Assembly (NCBI RefSeq): GCF_014652235.1
Contig: NZ_BMYK01000004.1
Location: forward strand, 124,001 to 188,000
Length of the DNA stretch: 64,000 bases
Direction: 5' to 3'
Source of the DNA: Pseudorhodoferax aquiterrae
Lineage (GTDB): Bacteria; Pseudomonadota; Gammaproteobacteria; Burkholderiales; Burkholderiaceae_C
This document shows positions 13,245 through 16,910 of this stretch, piece after piece. The stretch's first letter is position 1, and each line of letters opens with the position of its first letter. The position numbers were made by a program, and so were the translations under genes. The notes under the pieces are model-generated. The model did not search any database. It was not told the origin of the DNA and worked only from the letters and a program-made list of their open reading frames with translations.

Positions 13245-13259
13245 GAACCATAATGGTTC
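13245..13259. promoter_or_regulatory. Autoregulatory operator of the FitAB-like toxin-antitoxin pair
   Basis: GAACCATAATGGTTC is a perfect 15-bp palindrome (7-bp arms around one A) starting 33 bp upstream of the antitoxin ATG. Its centre CATAAT resembles a -10 hexamer, so a bound antitoxin-toxin complex would block RNA polymerase, as in FitAB and VapBC systems. Confidence 0.65.
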
Positions 13260-13277
13260 CGTTTTGGAGTCTCTGCC

Positions 13278-13523
13278 ATGCCCACCACCCTGACGTTGAA
13301 GAACATTCCCGATGCGGTGTACCAGCGCTTGAAGGAGTCCGCACTGGCCAACCGGCGCAGCTTGAACAGCGAGGCCATCGTGCGGCTCGAATCCGTGCTG
13401 CTGCCGCAGCAGCCCGACACCGGCGCGCGCCTGGCGCGTGCGCGCGCGCTGCGGCAGGCGCTGCCGGCAGCCGCCTTCAGCGCGCAGGGGGTGGATGCGA
13501 TGAAGCGCCAGGGCCGCGCATGA
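13278..13523 (+). CDS. FitA-like ribbon-helix-helix antitoxin
   Basis: 81 residues: MPTTLTLKNIPDAVYQRLKESALANRRSLNSEAIVRLE. The N-terminal strand TLTLKNIP, helix VYQRLKESA and second helix RSLNSEAIVRLESVL define the Arc/MetJ ribbon-helix-helix fold of FitA-type antitoxins. The C-terminal 35 residues (LARARALRQALPAAAFSAQGVDAMKRQGRA) should bind the PIN toxin. A GGAG ribosome site precedes the ATG. The stop overlaps the toxin start (ATGA), typical of co-translated pairs, and a perfect operator palindrome lies just upstream. It has no sequence similarity to the VapB at 274-474, so the window holds two independent PIN-toxin modules. Confidence 0.9.
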   Translation: MPTTLTLKNIPDAVYQRLKESALANRRSLNSEAIVRLESVLLPQQPDTGARLARARALRQALPAAAFSAQGVDAMKRQGRA

Positions 13524-13915
13524 TCGTCGTCGACACGAACGTGCTGGCCTACCTGTACCTGCCGACCGAGTTCTCCGCCAACGCCGAAGCCTTGCTGGAG
13601 CACGACCCGCAGTGGGTGGCACCGCTGCTGTGGCGCAGCGAATTCCGCAACATCCTGGCCGGCTACCTGCGCCGCGGCAGCTTGCGGTTCGAACAGGTGC
13701 TGGCCTTGCAGGAGGAGGCCCAGGCGCTGTTGGTGGACCACGAATACGAGGTCGAATCGCGCGCCGTGCTCGAGTTGGTGCGTGACAGCGACTGCTCCGC
13801 CTACGACTGCGAGTTCGTGGCGCTCGCCATGCAACTGGGCGTTCCGCTCGTCACGATGGACCGCAAGCTGTTGAAAGCCTTCCCGCAATGTGCGGAGTCG
13901 CTGAAGGGGCCGTGA
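13520..13915 (+). CDS. vapC: PIN-domain toxin (FitB/VapC type)
   Basis: 131 residues: MIVVDTNVLAYLYLPTEFS. The PIN catalytic acidic residues are present: Asp5 in VVDTNVL, Glu in LLWRSEFRNILAGYL near residue 40, Asp in SDCSAYDCEFVALAMQLG near residue 97, and the final Asp in PLVTMDRKLLKAFP. This is an intact Mg-dependent endoribonuclease fold; toxins of this kind block translation by cutting tRNA or rRNA. The ATG overlaps the antitoxin TGA. Length is normal for the family. Confidence 0.92.
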   Translation: MIVVDTNVLAYLYLPTEFSANAEALLEHDPQWVAPLLWRSEFRNILAGYLRRGSLRFEQVLALQEEAQALLVDHEYEVESRAVLELVRDSDCSAYDCEFVALAMQLGVPLVTMDRKLLKAFPQCAESLKGP

Positions 13916-14000: not shown

Positions 14001-16910
14001 TCAATACCCGCGCAGGTCGTCGACGGCCAGCGGCAGCTTTCTGCCGCCGCGGATGCGCTGCAGCGTGCGCGTGACGACGTCCACGTCGTTGTCGAAACTG
14101 CCATGCGCGGGCGCCTGCGTGGCGATGGGCTGGCCAGCGGCGTCCACGGCCGTGGCGATGCGCTCGGCGTCCAGCACCGTGGTGCGCTTGGCCAGGTCCA
14201 CCTGCGCGGCCGCGGCGCGCCAGGTGGCCAGGGCTTCGCCGGTGTCCGAGGTGCCGTCCCAGCCGCTGTAGCCGGTGTCGTGGATGCGGTCCAGGCCCAG
14301 GATGGGCAGGCGCAGGTCGGTCTCCAGTGCGTTCGAGACGAAGTACAGCAACGACTTGCGGTACACCGCGCCCACGCTGTCCTTGCGTTCCACGCGGTCG
14401 GACAGCACGTCGATGTAGAGCCGCTCCATCACGTGCGCGTTGCGCGCATAGCGCGCGTTGGCGAAGGGCACGCTGCAGGCCGGCGCGTACAGGTGCACCG
14501 AGGCCAGCTTGTCGTGCAGACCGGCATCGCGGCCTTCGGCCTTGCGCCGTGCCAGCGCGGCGATCAGGTGGCCCAGCGCGATGGAGCCGGCCGAATGGCC
14601 GACCACGTGCAGCTCGAAGGCGTCGCCCCAGGTGCTGGACAGGGCCTGCAGCGCATCCAGCAGCAGGTCGCCGCCGCGGCGCGGTGCGAAGGCCAGGTCG
14701 GCGTTCTCCTTCATCTCGCTCCAGATCGGCCGCGCGAGCGTGCGGCCGACGGTCTTCTCGAGCAGCAGGTCGGTCTTCTCGCTGATCCATTCGCCCAGGC
14801 CCGCGCCGGCCAGGCCGCGCTCCTTCTGCCGGCTGTCCTGCAGGATGTTGGCCAGGGTCTCGAACAGCCCGGTCTTCCAGACCAGGAACAAGGGGTAGCA
14901 GCCGTTGGCCACGAAGTAGCGGCCCATGGCGCTGGCGCGCTTGATGGCCGCGCCTTCGTCGTTGAGGCCGCCGTGCACGTACAGCACCAGGCGCTTGGTC
15001 TTGTCCTTCTGCGCGCGGAACCACTCGTCGGGCAGCGTGGTGCACTGGTGCTGCAGCTTGCGCGGCTGCTCGTCCTGCGTGAGGTAGCGGCTCACGCGGC
15101 CGTCGTTGCCCAGCACCACGCTGTGCTGGTAGGCCAGGCCCTGGTCCCACCACTTGGTGCGGTCGGTGCCCGCGAGCGCGCCGGCCTGGCCGTGCGAGAC
15201 GGCGAGCCGGCCCGCCACCACGCCCGGCACGCCCAGCGCGACGACCCAGGCGTCCATGCCGTTGGCCAGCCAGTCCAGGTAGCTGATCACGCCGAAGCCG
15301 CCCGCGCCCCAGCTGTCGCCCCAGGAGTTCTGCACGATGAAGCCGACGGCGTTGAAGCCCACCAGTGCGAAGGCGTGGCCGCCGTCCTGCGAGGGGCGGC
15401 CGTCGAACGGGATCTCGGGCAGGTCGGCATGGTCCTGCGGCACCTGCCTGCGCGTGCGCACCTGGTTCCAGCCGTCGTGCGTGAAGGCCGAGACGAACAC
15501 CGCCCAGTGCTGGTGGATGGCGGCCTGCATGTCGGTGATCGACTTGGTGTCGATGCGGTAGTACACGCCCAGCGTGTTCTGCACGGCGCGGTCGGCGAAG
15601 CCGTAGCGCGCCGGGTTGGCCTTGTCGGGCGCGTAGGGCCAGTCGCTCTCCAGGCACACGCCGTTGTTGAACCAGCCCTTGAGCGCGCCGCGGCAGGACG
15701 AGCCGTCGTAGTTCTCGCCCTCGTACTCGTCGTGCCGGCGCGCCAGCGTATAGAGCATGCGCGGGCTGACGGACTCCATCTGCACCGGGTTGCCGGCCTT
15801 GATCCAGCGCAGGTAGTTGACCACGCAGGCCAGGCCGAAGCCGGTGCAGGCGCCTTCCTGGCCCTGGTCCAGGATCAGGCCGGCGGCCGTGTAGCCGGGC
15901 AGGAAGCGGCTGATGTCCTGCGGCGTGGGCACCTGGTCGGGCAGCGTGATGGCGGCGGGCTGGAACTGGCGGTCGCGCAGGTCGGCCGCGTCCTTGCGCG
16001 TGTGCAGGTTGCGCGGCTTGCGGGGCACGGGCTGGATGGCGGCCAGTGCCGCGGCCTTGCCCTTGGCCGCACCCTTGCGGGCGGGCGCACGCGCCGGGGC
16101 CGGCGGCCAGACCGCGGCTGCTCGCTTGAACACATCCGAGAAGCTCTCCAGCCCATGCGATCCGCCGTTGACGAGCCGGCGCGCGGCGCGCAGGTCGCCC
16201 GCGGCCACGGCGGCGCGGAACTTGGTGGCCTTGTCGGCCAGGAACTGCGCCAGGATGACGGCCGCCACCTCGGGCGCGTTGGCCCGGTCGGGGAAGGCCA
16301 CGAGGTCGATGCCGATGCGCTTGCCGTAGGTGGCGTAGTTGGCCTTGCCCGTCAGCTGCACGAAGCCGCGGCCGCGGTAGCGCTCACCGTCGCCGCGCGC
16401 GCCGTTGCCGATGTCCTTGCGCATGTCGTACAGCGAGAACGGCGCGCCGCCGGGCGGGGTGTTGTACTTGGAGGGCAGCTCGGCGATGGGCACAAAGCCC
16501 TCGGTCTCGGCGCGGATCGTGCCGAGCGCGCCGATGACCATGGCCGTGTCGGTGAGTTCTGCGGCGCCCAGGGCCGCCTCCACATAGGGCAGGTAGCGCG
16601 CGATGTTGGCCGGCCGCGTGGCCGGGAACAGCCGGCACACGTCGCCCACGTTGAGCGGCGGCTGCAGCGGCACGGGGGGCGCCAGTTCCAGCAGCACCTG
16701 GCAGCGCGGGCCGACGATGCCGTCGGCGATCAGGCCCACGCCGGACTGCCAACGCCGGATGGCCGCGTCGAAGTCCTCGTCGATGGGGCTGCCCGGCGGG
16801 GCGGCGAGCGAGGGGAAGGCCTTGGCGTCGGCGGCCAGCAGCGTGAACAGGGTGGCGCGCAAGAGGTCGACGTCGGAACCAGCGTCGCCCTTGGTCAGAA
16901 GATGCTTCAT
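14001..16910 (-). CDS. Giant four-domain hydrolase: PG-binding + GH19-like + papain-like (C1) peptidase + alpha/beta hydrolase
   Basis: 969 residues with no signal peptide or membrane helix. Domain 1 (5-75) is a peptidoglycan_binding_1-like repeat (AAIRRWQSGVGLIADGIVGP). Domain 2 (about 100-270) is GH19/lysozyme-like with Glu135 in GTIRAETEGF and YRGRGFVQLTGKANY (178-192). A basic Ala-Lys-Pro linker (270-300) follows. Domain 3 (about 320-565) is a C1-type cysteine peptidase with Cys355 in LDQGQEGACTGFGLA, His512 in GGHAFALVGFN and Asn528 in VQNSWGDSWG. Domain 4 (about 640-900) is an alpha/beta hydrolase with LYVHGGLND and nucleophile Ser773 in VVGHSAGS. The gene stands alone. A wall hydrolase, a protease and a lipase-like domain in one chain suggest an envelope-attacking effector or toxin, but no secretion marker is visible; a housekeeping role cannot be excluded. 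Confidence 0.85.
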   Translation of the reverse strand: MKHLLTKGDAGSDVDLLRATLFTLLAADAKAFPSLAAPPGSPIDEDFDAAIRRWQSGVGLIADGIVGPRCQVLLELAPPVPLQPPLNVGDVCRLFPATRPANIARYLPYVEAALGAAELTDTAMVIGALGTIRAETEGFVPIAELPSKYNTPPGGAPFSLYDMRKDIGNGARGDGERYRGRGFVQLTGKANYATYGKRIGIDLVAFPDRANAPEVAAVILAQFLADKATKFRAAVAAGDLRAARRLVNGGSHGLESFSDVFKRAAAVWPPAPARAPARKGAAKGKAAALAAIQPVPRKPRNLHTRKDAADLRDRQFQPAAITLPDQVPTPQDISRFLPGYTAAGLILDQGQEGACTGFGLACVVNYLRWIKAGNPVQMESVSPRMLYTLARRHDEYEGENYDGSSCRGALKGWFNNGVCLESDWPYAPDKANPARYGFADRAVQNTLGVYYRIDTKSITDMQAAIHQHWAVFVSAFTHDGWNQVRTRRQVPQDHADLPEIPFDGRPSQDGGHAFALVGFNAVGFIVQNSWGDSWGAGGFGVISYLDWLANGMDAWVVALGVPGVVAGRLAVSHGQAGALAGTDRTKWWDQGLAYQHSVVLGNDGRVSRYLTQDEQPRKLQHQCTTLPDEWFRAQKDKTKRLVLYVHGGLNDEGAAIKRASAMGRYFVANGCYPLFLVWKTGLFETLANILQDSRQKERGLAGAGLGEWISEKTDLLLEKTVGRTLARPIWSEMKENADLAFAPRRGGDLLLDALQALSSTWGDAFELHVVGHSAGSIALGHLIAALARRKAEGRDAGLHDKLASVHLYAPACSVPFANARYARNAHVMERLYIDVLSDRVERKDSVGAVYRKSLLYFVSNALETDLRLPILGLDRIHDTGYSGWDGTSDTGEALATWRAAAAQVDLAKRTTVLDAERIATAVDAAGQPIATQAPAHGSFDNDVDVVTRTLQRIRGGRKLPLAVDDLRGY

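Follow-up and report, generated by a model that had tools for sequence, protein, structure and literature searches.

The minus strand of the window, by which we mean the whole 64,000-nucleotide stretch that was analyzed (G000:C4:124001-188000, in a genome of 7.1 Mb), holds at 14001-16910 an open reading frame that, by the ORF list and its translation, encodes 969 amino acids. A sequence-only reading had described the product as a chain combining wall-binding, GH19-like, papain-like and lipase-like domains, and the check that it proposed, profile searches together with structure prediction, supports this anatomy: the protein joins PG_binding_1, GH19, a papain domain of the xylellain type and a divergent alpha/beta hydrolase (Table 1). 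The gene is real and under purifying selection, with a whole-gene dN/dS of 0.079-0.296 against five relatives. Antisense to it runs a longer ORF, in which an above-cut-off family match (RidA, PF01042; Pfam) lies at the end alone. A PIN-domain ORF converges on the gene; it matched neither the PIN-like neighbor family of Variovorax described below nor any other locus searched, the loci of near-identical relatives included.

Table 1. Features of the 969-residue gene, its convergent neighbor and a recurrent gene beside related loci (window coordinates unless a locus is named)
Feature	Residues	Coordinates	Strand	Expected catalytic residues	Evidence
Whole gene, leaderless multi-hydrolase, 969 aa		14001..16910	-		ORF, translation, homologues, dN/dS, upstream stop
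PG_binding_1 domain	1-82	16665..16910	-		Pfam E 0.016 in window protein, below cut-off
GH19 endolysin-type domain	84-272	16095..16661	-	E135, E144	Invariant in 38/38 full-length rows
Linker, predicted disordered, relaxed selection	273-299	16014..16094	-		pLDDT <50 at 272-312; dN/dS
Papain domain (C1, xylellain-type) with preceding conserved segment	300-562	15225..16013	-	Q349, C355, H512, N528	
Second disordered linker	563-585	15156..15224	-		pLDDT <50 at 562-584
Divergent alpha/beta hydrolase	586-969	14004..15155	-	S773 in GHSAG, H936, E841, D844	Invariant in 44/44 rows
PIN-domain ORF		13253..13915	+		Pfam E 3.8e-12
HExxH gene, L130		2731-4656	-		Motif by eye
HExxH gene, L149		10826-12688	+		Motif by eye
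HExxH gene, L129		9712-11517	+		Motif by eye

Four domains and their predicted active sites

Do the enzymes on this chain look intact? The earlier reading held that Glu135, the Cys355/His512/Asn528 triad and Ser773 in GHSAG are kept, and all of them are invariant in the 38 full-length rows of alignment A1, as are E144, Q349, E841, D844 and H936. The six core-only rows of the same alignment, which lack GH19 and enter the 44-row counts alone, also keep the eight expected catalytic residues outside GH19, so that these are unvarying in 44 of 44. Together, conservation and structure models support a leaderless chain that carries three enzyme types, all of them intact in appearance.

PG_binding_1 was matched at E ≤1 in 33 of the 44 aligned members (Pfam; best, 2.9e-8). 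The next domain has the GH19 fold, and E135 and E144 lie nine residues apart, the same spacing as E51/E60 of the endolysin PaGH19Lys, and align with endolysin Glu residues, though in a low-scoring segment. In the linker that follows, dN/dS rises to 0.38-0.61 in four of five comparisons and is zero against the closest relative. The papain domain shows the papain fold and scores above the Pfam threshold, with its Cys, His, Asn and Gln present in every one of the 44 rows, and the segment ahead of it is conserved as well (D307, D310, D313 and P318 are invariant). In xylellain, latency comes about through the segment before the protease. A caspase domain (Peptidase_C14) was absent from the window protein in the Pfam scan.

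The C-terminal domain is divergent. Its alpha/beta fold is called from VIA-align and secondary structure, because Foldseek gave no match below 1e-3 for its model, and its profile matched no PDB sequence up to E 0.1. At the level of sequence, the candidates for a Ser-acid-His site are S773, H936 and, as the acid, either E841 or D844. Even at an E of up to 1, the window protein showed no similarity to Pfam DUF900, which is weakly matched in 22 of the 44 aligned members (best E, 0.0043). NCBIfam returned a single match, at an E of 0.041 that is not meaningful.

The chain was also said to carry no signal peptide, and in the window, this is correct: 11 codons upstream of the ATG the frame is closed by a stop, and the first residues of the protein already belong to the PG-binding domain, which excludes a leader. 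At 48 other loci, the PG-binding domain starts within about 10 residues of an in-frame start codon, and since several of these loci have longer open frames upstream, the exclusion is strict solely where the frame is short.

Relatives, partners and neighbors

Near-identical copies, at 93-98%, occur in genomes recorded as Variovorax boronicumulans DE0202, Pseudorhodoferax sp. Leaf265, P. soli and P. sp. Leaf274, which makes Pseudorhodoferax, or something near it, the probable host. Across the genome collection, the four-domain order is kept in 47 of 57 loci, at 55-98% identity; two more show GH19-papain-hydrolase (L045, by choice of start codon, and L070, at a contig end), and the rest are core-only (papain and hydrolase), partial or cut. 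A search of the order found matches at E ≤1e-20 in 35 of 300 genomes, five of them full-length counting the window's own and the remainder cores or single modules. In the phylum, the hydrolase was found at E ≤1e-8 in 15 of 398 genomes, the window's included.

Several side observations belong with this survey. Some copies of the full-length or core gene are broken: at L128:6512-9381 (-), the copy is split over separate frames, L102:1474-3606 (+) has an internal stop, and internal stops also interrupt core genes of G058 (C17:29982-31865) and G204. The full-length gene of L043 is accompanied, about 5 kb away, by another relative of the alpha/beta hydrolase that stands alone (L043:13713-14903, -). 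A phage origin of the whole gene was rejected, as every phage record fell short of 80% coverage of the query (among the matches listed, 20 of 245, each covers one end or one module), and so was a plasmid-borne full-length copy, as 53 plasmid records matched but all stayed below 80%. The scan of viral contigs gave one core locus and two papain-only loci. Xylellain-like papain genes that stand alone lie in viral contigs at L093:1139-1912 and L094:4554-5741, and by eye, the L093 copy is surrounded by tail/baseplate and homing-endonuclease-like genes. On a Roseivivax plasmid, L090:4813-7788 (+) encodes a trypsin-like plus papain protein, of which the trypsin region matches a PADLOC nacht profile and the C-terminal region, judged by eye, could be a hydrolase that lacks the usual serine motif.

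Partners of the hydrolase vary. Among the 14 other phylum genomes that have it, a wall hydrolase sits in the same chain in five: once as PGB-GH19-papain-hydrolase (L169), once as GH19-papain-hydrolase without PG-binding (L172), once as a PF11860 muramidase followed by papain and hydrolase (L176; E 2.5e-61) and twice as Amidase_2-hydrolase-caspase (L178 and L179). Seven have papain-hydrolase alone and two have the hydrolase alone. The order search added three more caspase fusions (L129, L130 and L149); in L149, Pfam called the caspase alone, and the N terminus looks by eye like the amidase of the others. Directly after the hydrolase-caspase gene at these three loci stands a conserved gene with an HExxH motif, metallopeptidase-like by eye (Table 1), which is 51-56% identical among the loci and gave no Pfam match in the two copies scanned.

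Wall-related genes also occur separately beside the core. An Amidase_2/SH3 gene lies just upstream of it in L136; a PG_binding_1 gene lies upstream in L133, L134 and L103, where Pfam shows the binding domain alone and "lysozyme-like" is our own reading of the remainder; and in Sinorhizobium fredii L088, a PG_binding_1 gene with a sub-threshold CHAP match is divergent from the core. Such adjacency is not general: a recognized wall hydrolase adjoins 3 of the 23 core-only genes (L133, L134 and L136, among L131-L145, L150, L170, L171, L173-L175, L177 and L180), a count for which a minority of the neighbors were scanned. In L132, the adjacent slot holds a membrane-protein-like gene, and a PG-binding/GH19 relative is found about 11 kb off.

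How often, then, did the core acquire a wall cutter? In a core tree of 60 rows, the PGB-GH19 fusion forms a single, fully supported clade that includes none of the other wall-hydrolase partners. L176 belongs to a second group, whereas L172, L133/L134 and L136 are scattered through a third that also contains core-only genes; at least five changes are required to explain the labels. Because these unrelated partners are spread over the tree, the core joined wall hydrolases more than once: GH19 with PG-binding, another GH19 and the PF11860 muramidase within the chain, and Amidase_2 or PG-binding/lysozyme-like genes beside it. Joins and losses are not exactly countable around L172, L133 and L134, since these share one clade with core-only genes. 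In the hydrolase tree, the five caspase-variant members group together (support, 88), and the placement of that group, within the papain forms or apart from them, has a support of 37; L045 and L070 are labeled there by mistake as papain plus hydrolase, though both carry GH19. The two trees come from quick searches and contain some long branches.

The neighborhood of the full-length gene is not conserved. We clustered 1089 ORFs of at least 35 aa lying within 1.5 kb of 48 full-length genes, and the most widespread families are each present at 8 of these 48 loci. One overlaps the RidA gene, upstream in the window's genus and downstream in L037, L038 and L041; the other is a gene that looks PIN-like by eye, downstream in eight Variovorax-named loci, together with other frames of the same gene. 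Since no family extends past 8 of 48 loci, no candidate for an immunity gene emerges, and the search for conserved small neighbors that the earlier reading suggested for this purpose came back empty; an immunity gene or other fixed partner is ruled out as a conserved neighbor within this range.

Proposed release on lysis and its rivals

We favor, at a probability of roughly 0.4, the explanation that this is a leaderless, cytoplasm-made enzyme for dismantling cells, which would become active after release from a lysing cell. The N-terminal domain would hold peptidoglycan, GH19 would cleave its glycan strand, the papain domain would attack protein, and the serine hydrolase at the C terminus would act on an ester bond (lipid or acyl), all as rigid catalytic units tied by flexible linkers. 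In the living producer, the cytoplasm would keep wall and envelope beyond the reach of the chain, and the protease is probably held in a latent state by the stretch that precedes the papain domain. If the inner membrane gave way, through self-lysis, phage lysis or some other death route, the chain could reach its substrates and break down the cell and its contents, possibly its neighbors too.

We infer these activities, the latency, the release and the role from several lines of evidence. The recurring plan of wall cutter, cysteine protease and serine hydrolase points to a cell-dismantling enzyme, and the fact that wall hydrolases were recruited repeatedly speaks for joint action of protease, serine hydrolase and wall cutter. 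The absence of both a leader and an immunity gene fits an enzyme that is walled off from its substrate better than one aimed at kin. Self-lysis is brought in by analogy with PA0629 of Pseudomonas aeruginosa, a GH19 endolysin of self-lysis whose E51V mutant failed to lyse (PMC12329726, citing Turnbull et al.; PMC4834629). Some findings weigh against the lysis reading. No holin or death trigger was seen beside the gene, and an executor of self-lysis might have a fixed regulator, of which none is conserved. In addition, nine of the 14 other hydrolase-bearing phylum genomes have papain plus hydrolase (seven) or the hydrolase (two) alone, and the papain-hydrolase core could have a purely intracellular role.

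Is the protein instead injected? The sequence-only reading took it for an interbacterial effector or contact-dependent toxin, that is, an antibacterial protein delivered by a T6SS or another contact-dependent machine, its immunity protein unlinked or absent, and we consider this rather unlikely. What stands of that idea is the leaderless chain, the match of GH19 to the structure of the T6SS effector TseP (8xcl; profile E 3.8e-7; Foldseek E 9.5e-5) and the presence of TssC in 27 of 44 full-length carriers (4 of 6 plus 23 of 38 others), the window's genome among those with it. This share exceeds that in the sample of relatives, where 15 of 60 have TssC, which counts for injection and against release on lysis, although kinship and genome size confound the comparison. 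(The 26 of 45 of the T6SS search include seven genomes of other architectures, three positive, which were left out of the 23 of 38; L029-L032 were left out of the second search, their counterparts G002-G005 being already in the first.) What does not stand is any specific support. In 17 of 44 carriers, which include draft genomes, the search found no TssC, the strongest cases being G009, 100% complete on a single contig, and G302, likewise 100% on two contigs, which rules against a strict tie to T6SS as its cargo; the window's genome has TssC on contig C47 and the 969-aa gene on C4; and the neighbors, as described, reach at most 8 of 48 loci. MIX, WHIX, PAAR, Rhs and VgrG are marker or carrier domains of T6SS, and the Pfam scan found no injection or toxin marker domain in the protein (some markers may be outside Pfam). 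Release on lysis is favored over contact-dependent injection.

The same anatomy would serve a digestive or bacteriolytic enzyme that is spilled by lysis or vesicles as a weapon or scavenging aid against other bacteria, the producer not being the target. Many carriers do belong to environmental genera, such as Variovorax, Rhizobacter and Luteibacter, but the window shows no export signal and Gram-negative targets would be shielded by their outer membrane; we doubt this explanation.

Less probable still is a regulated suicide effector of a conflict or anti-phage system, in which the papain or caspase domain would be the signal-activated switch. The fusion of a related hydrolase to caspase and the nacht match of the trypsin-papain protein L090 speak for it, as does the caspase domain of VMAP conflict systems, which reportedly is always accompanied by an alpha/beta hydrolase gene next to it (PMC7159879). 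Against it, the protein matched no PADLOC family up to E 1, so that it was not identified as a known defense system, and no NTPase or sensor partner is conserved.

A decayed or neutral fusion without function as a unit, to which the broken copies in L128, G058 and G204 might point, is very improbable given the invariance of the expected catalytic residues, the dN/dS of the gene and its wholeness in 47 of 57 loci.

Beyond this one gene, we tentatively raise the possibility of an undescribed protein class built around one alpha/beta hydrolase family, in which wall hydrolase and papain or caspase were assembled more than once into a single-chain executor of lysis and digestion. A chain apparently able to cut wall, protein and ester, whose relatives carry unrelated wall cutters in the same place and sometimes a caspase instead of papain, suggests selection for the combined attack. 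It would make directly testable whether protease-linked death in bacteria includes the breakdown of wall and lipid, and it predicts when the enzymes turn active.

Known multi-enzyme lytic proteins

Open-access titles and the beginnings of abstracts named no protein with GH19, papain and hydrolase, nor did the parts of PMC10318531 and PMC3482391 consulted. The nearest precedents are perhaps the caspase plus Amidase_2 proteins noted in 2012 by Asplund-Samuelsson et al., one of which (of four, from Chitinophaga) also has a GDSL lipase and was likened to a "highly destructive weapon" (PMC3501461). As excerpted, they resemble ours in carrying a protease and a peptidoglycan hydrolase on a single chain, and they differ in having caspase, amidase and, in Chitinophaga, GDSL lipase where the 969-aa protein has papain, GH19 and alpha/beta hydrolase; the excerpts make no mention of the present hydrolase.

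TseP, an amidase-lysozyme T6SS effector with a VgrG2 carrier and a TsiP immunity protein, is likewise a multi-enzyme attacker of the wall, and its structure resembles our GH19 domain; it has two wall activities, and the part of its report consulted mentions neither protease nor esterase (PMC11893102). In the VMAP systems, a cysteine protease and an alpha/beta hydrolase are also repeatedly coupled, but as parts of NTP-dependent multi-gene systems, and the likeness is one of description.

The single modules have short counterparts. The GH19 endolysins PaGH19Lys (9eoi), SPN1S (4ok7) and PWe2 (9ms7) are lysins of 180-223 residues, whereas GH19 here lies within a four-domain protein; PaGH19Lys, with catalytic E51/E60, is described as a muramidase that does not cut chitin (PMC12329726). 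Xylellain-type peptidases are short bacterial enzymes, acquired by phages too according to passages of PMC10380794, and the substrate of xylellain is stated as unknown in the relevant part of PMC12090721; xylellain itself (3ois) is a C1 papain-like protease, and the papain domain here, unlike the short enzymes of that type, is internal and tied to a serine hydrolase.
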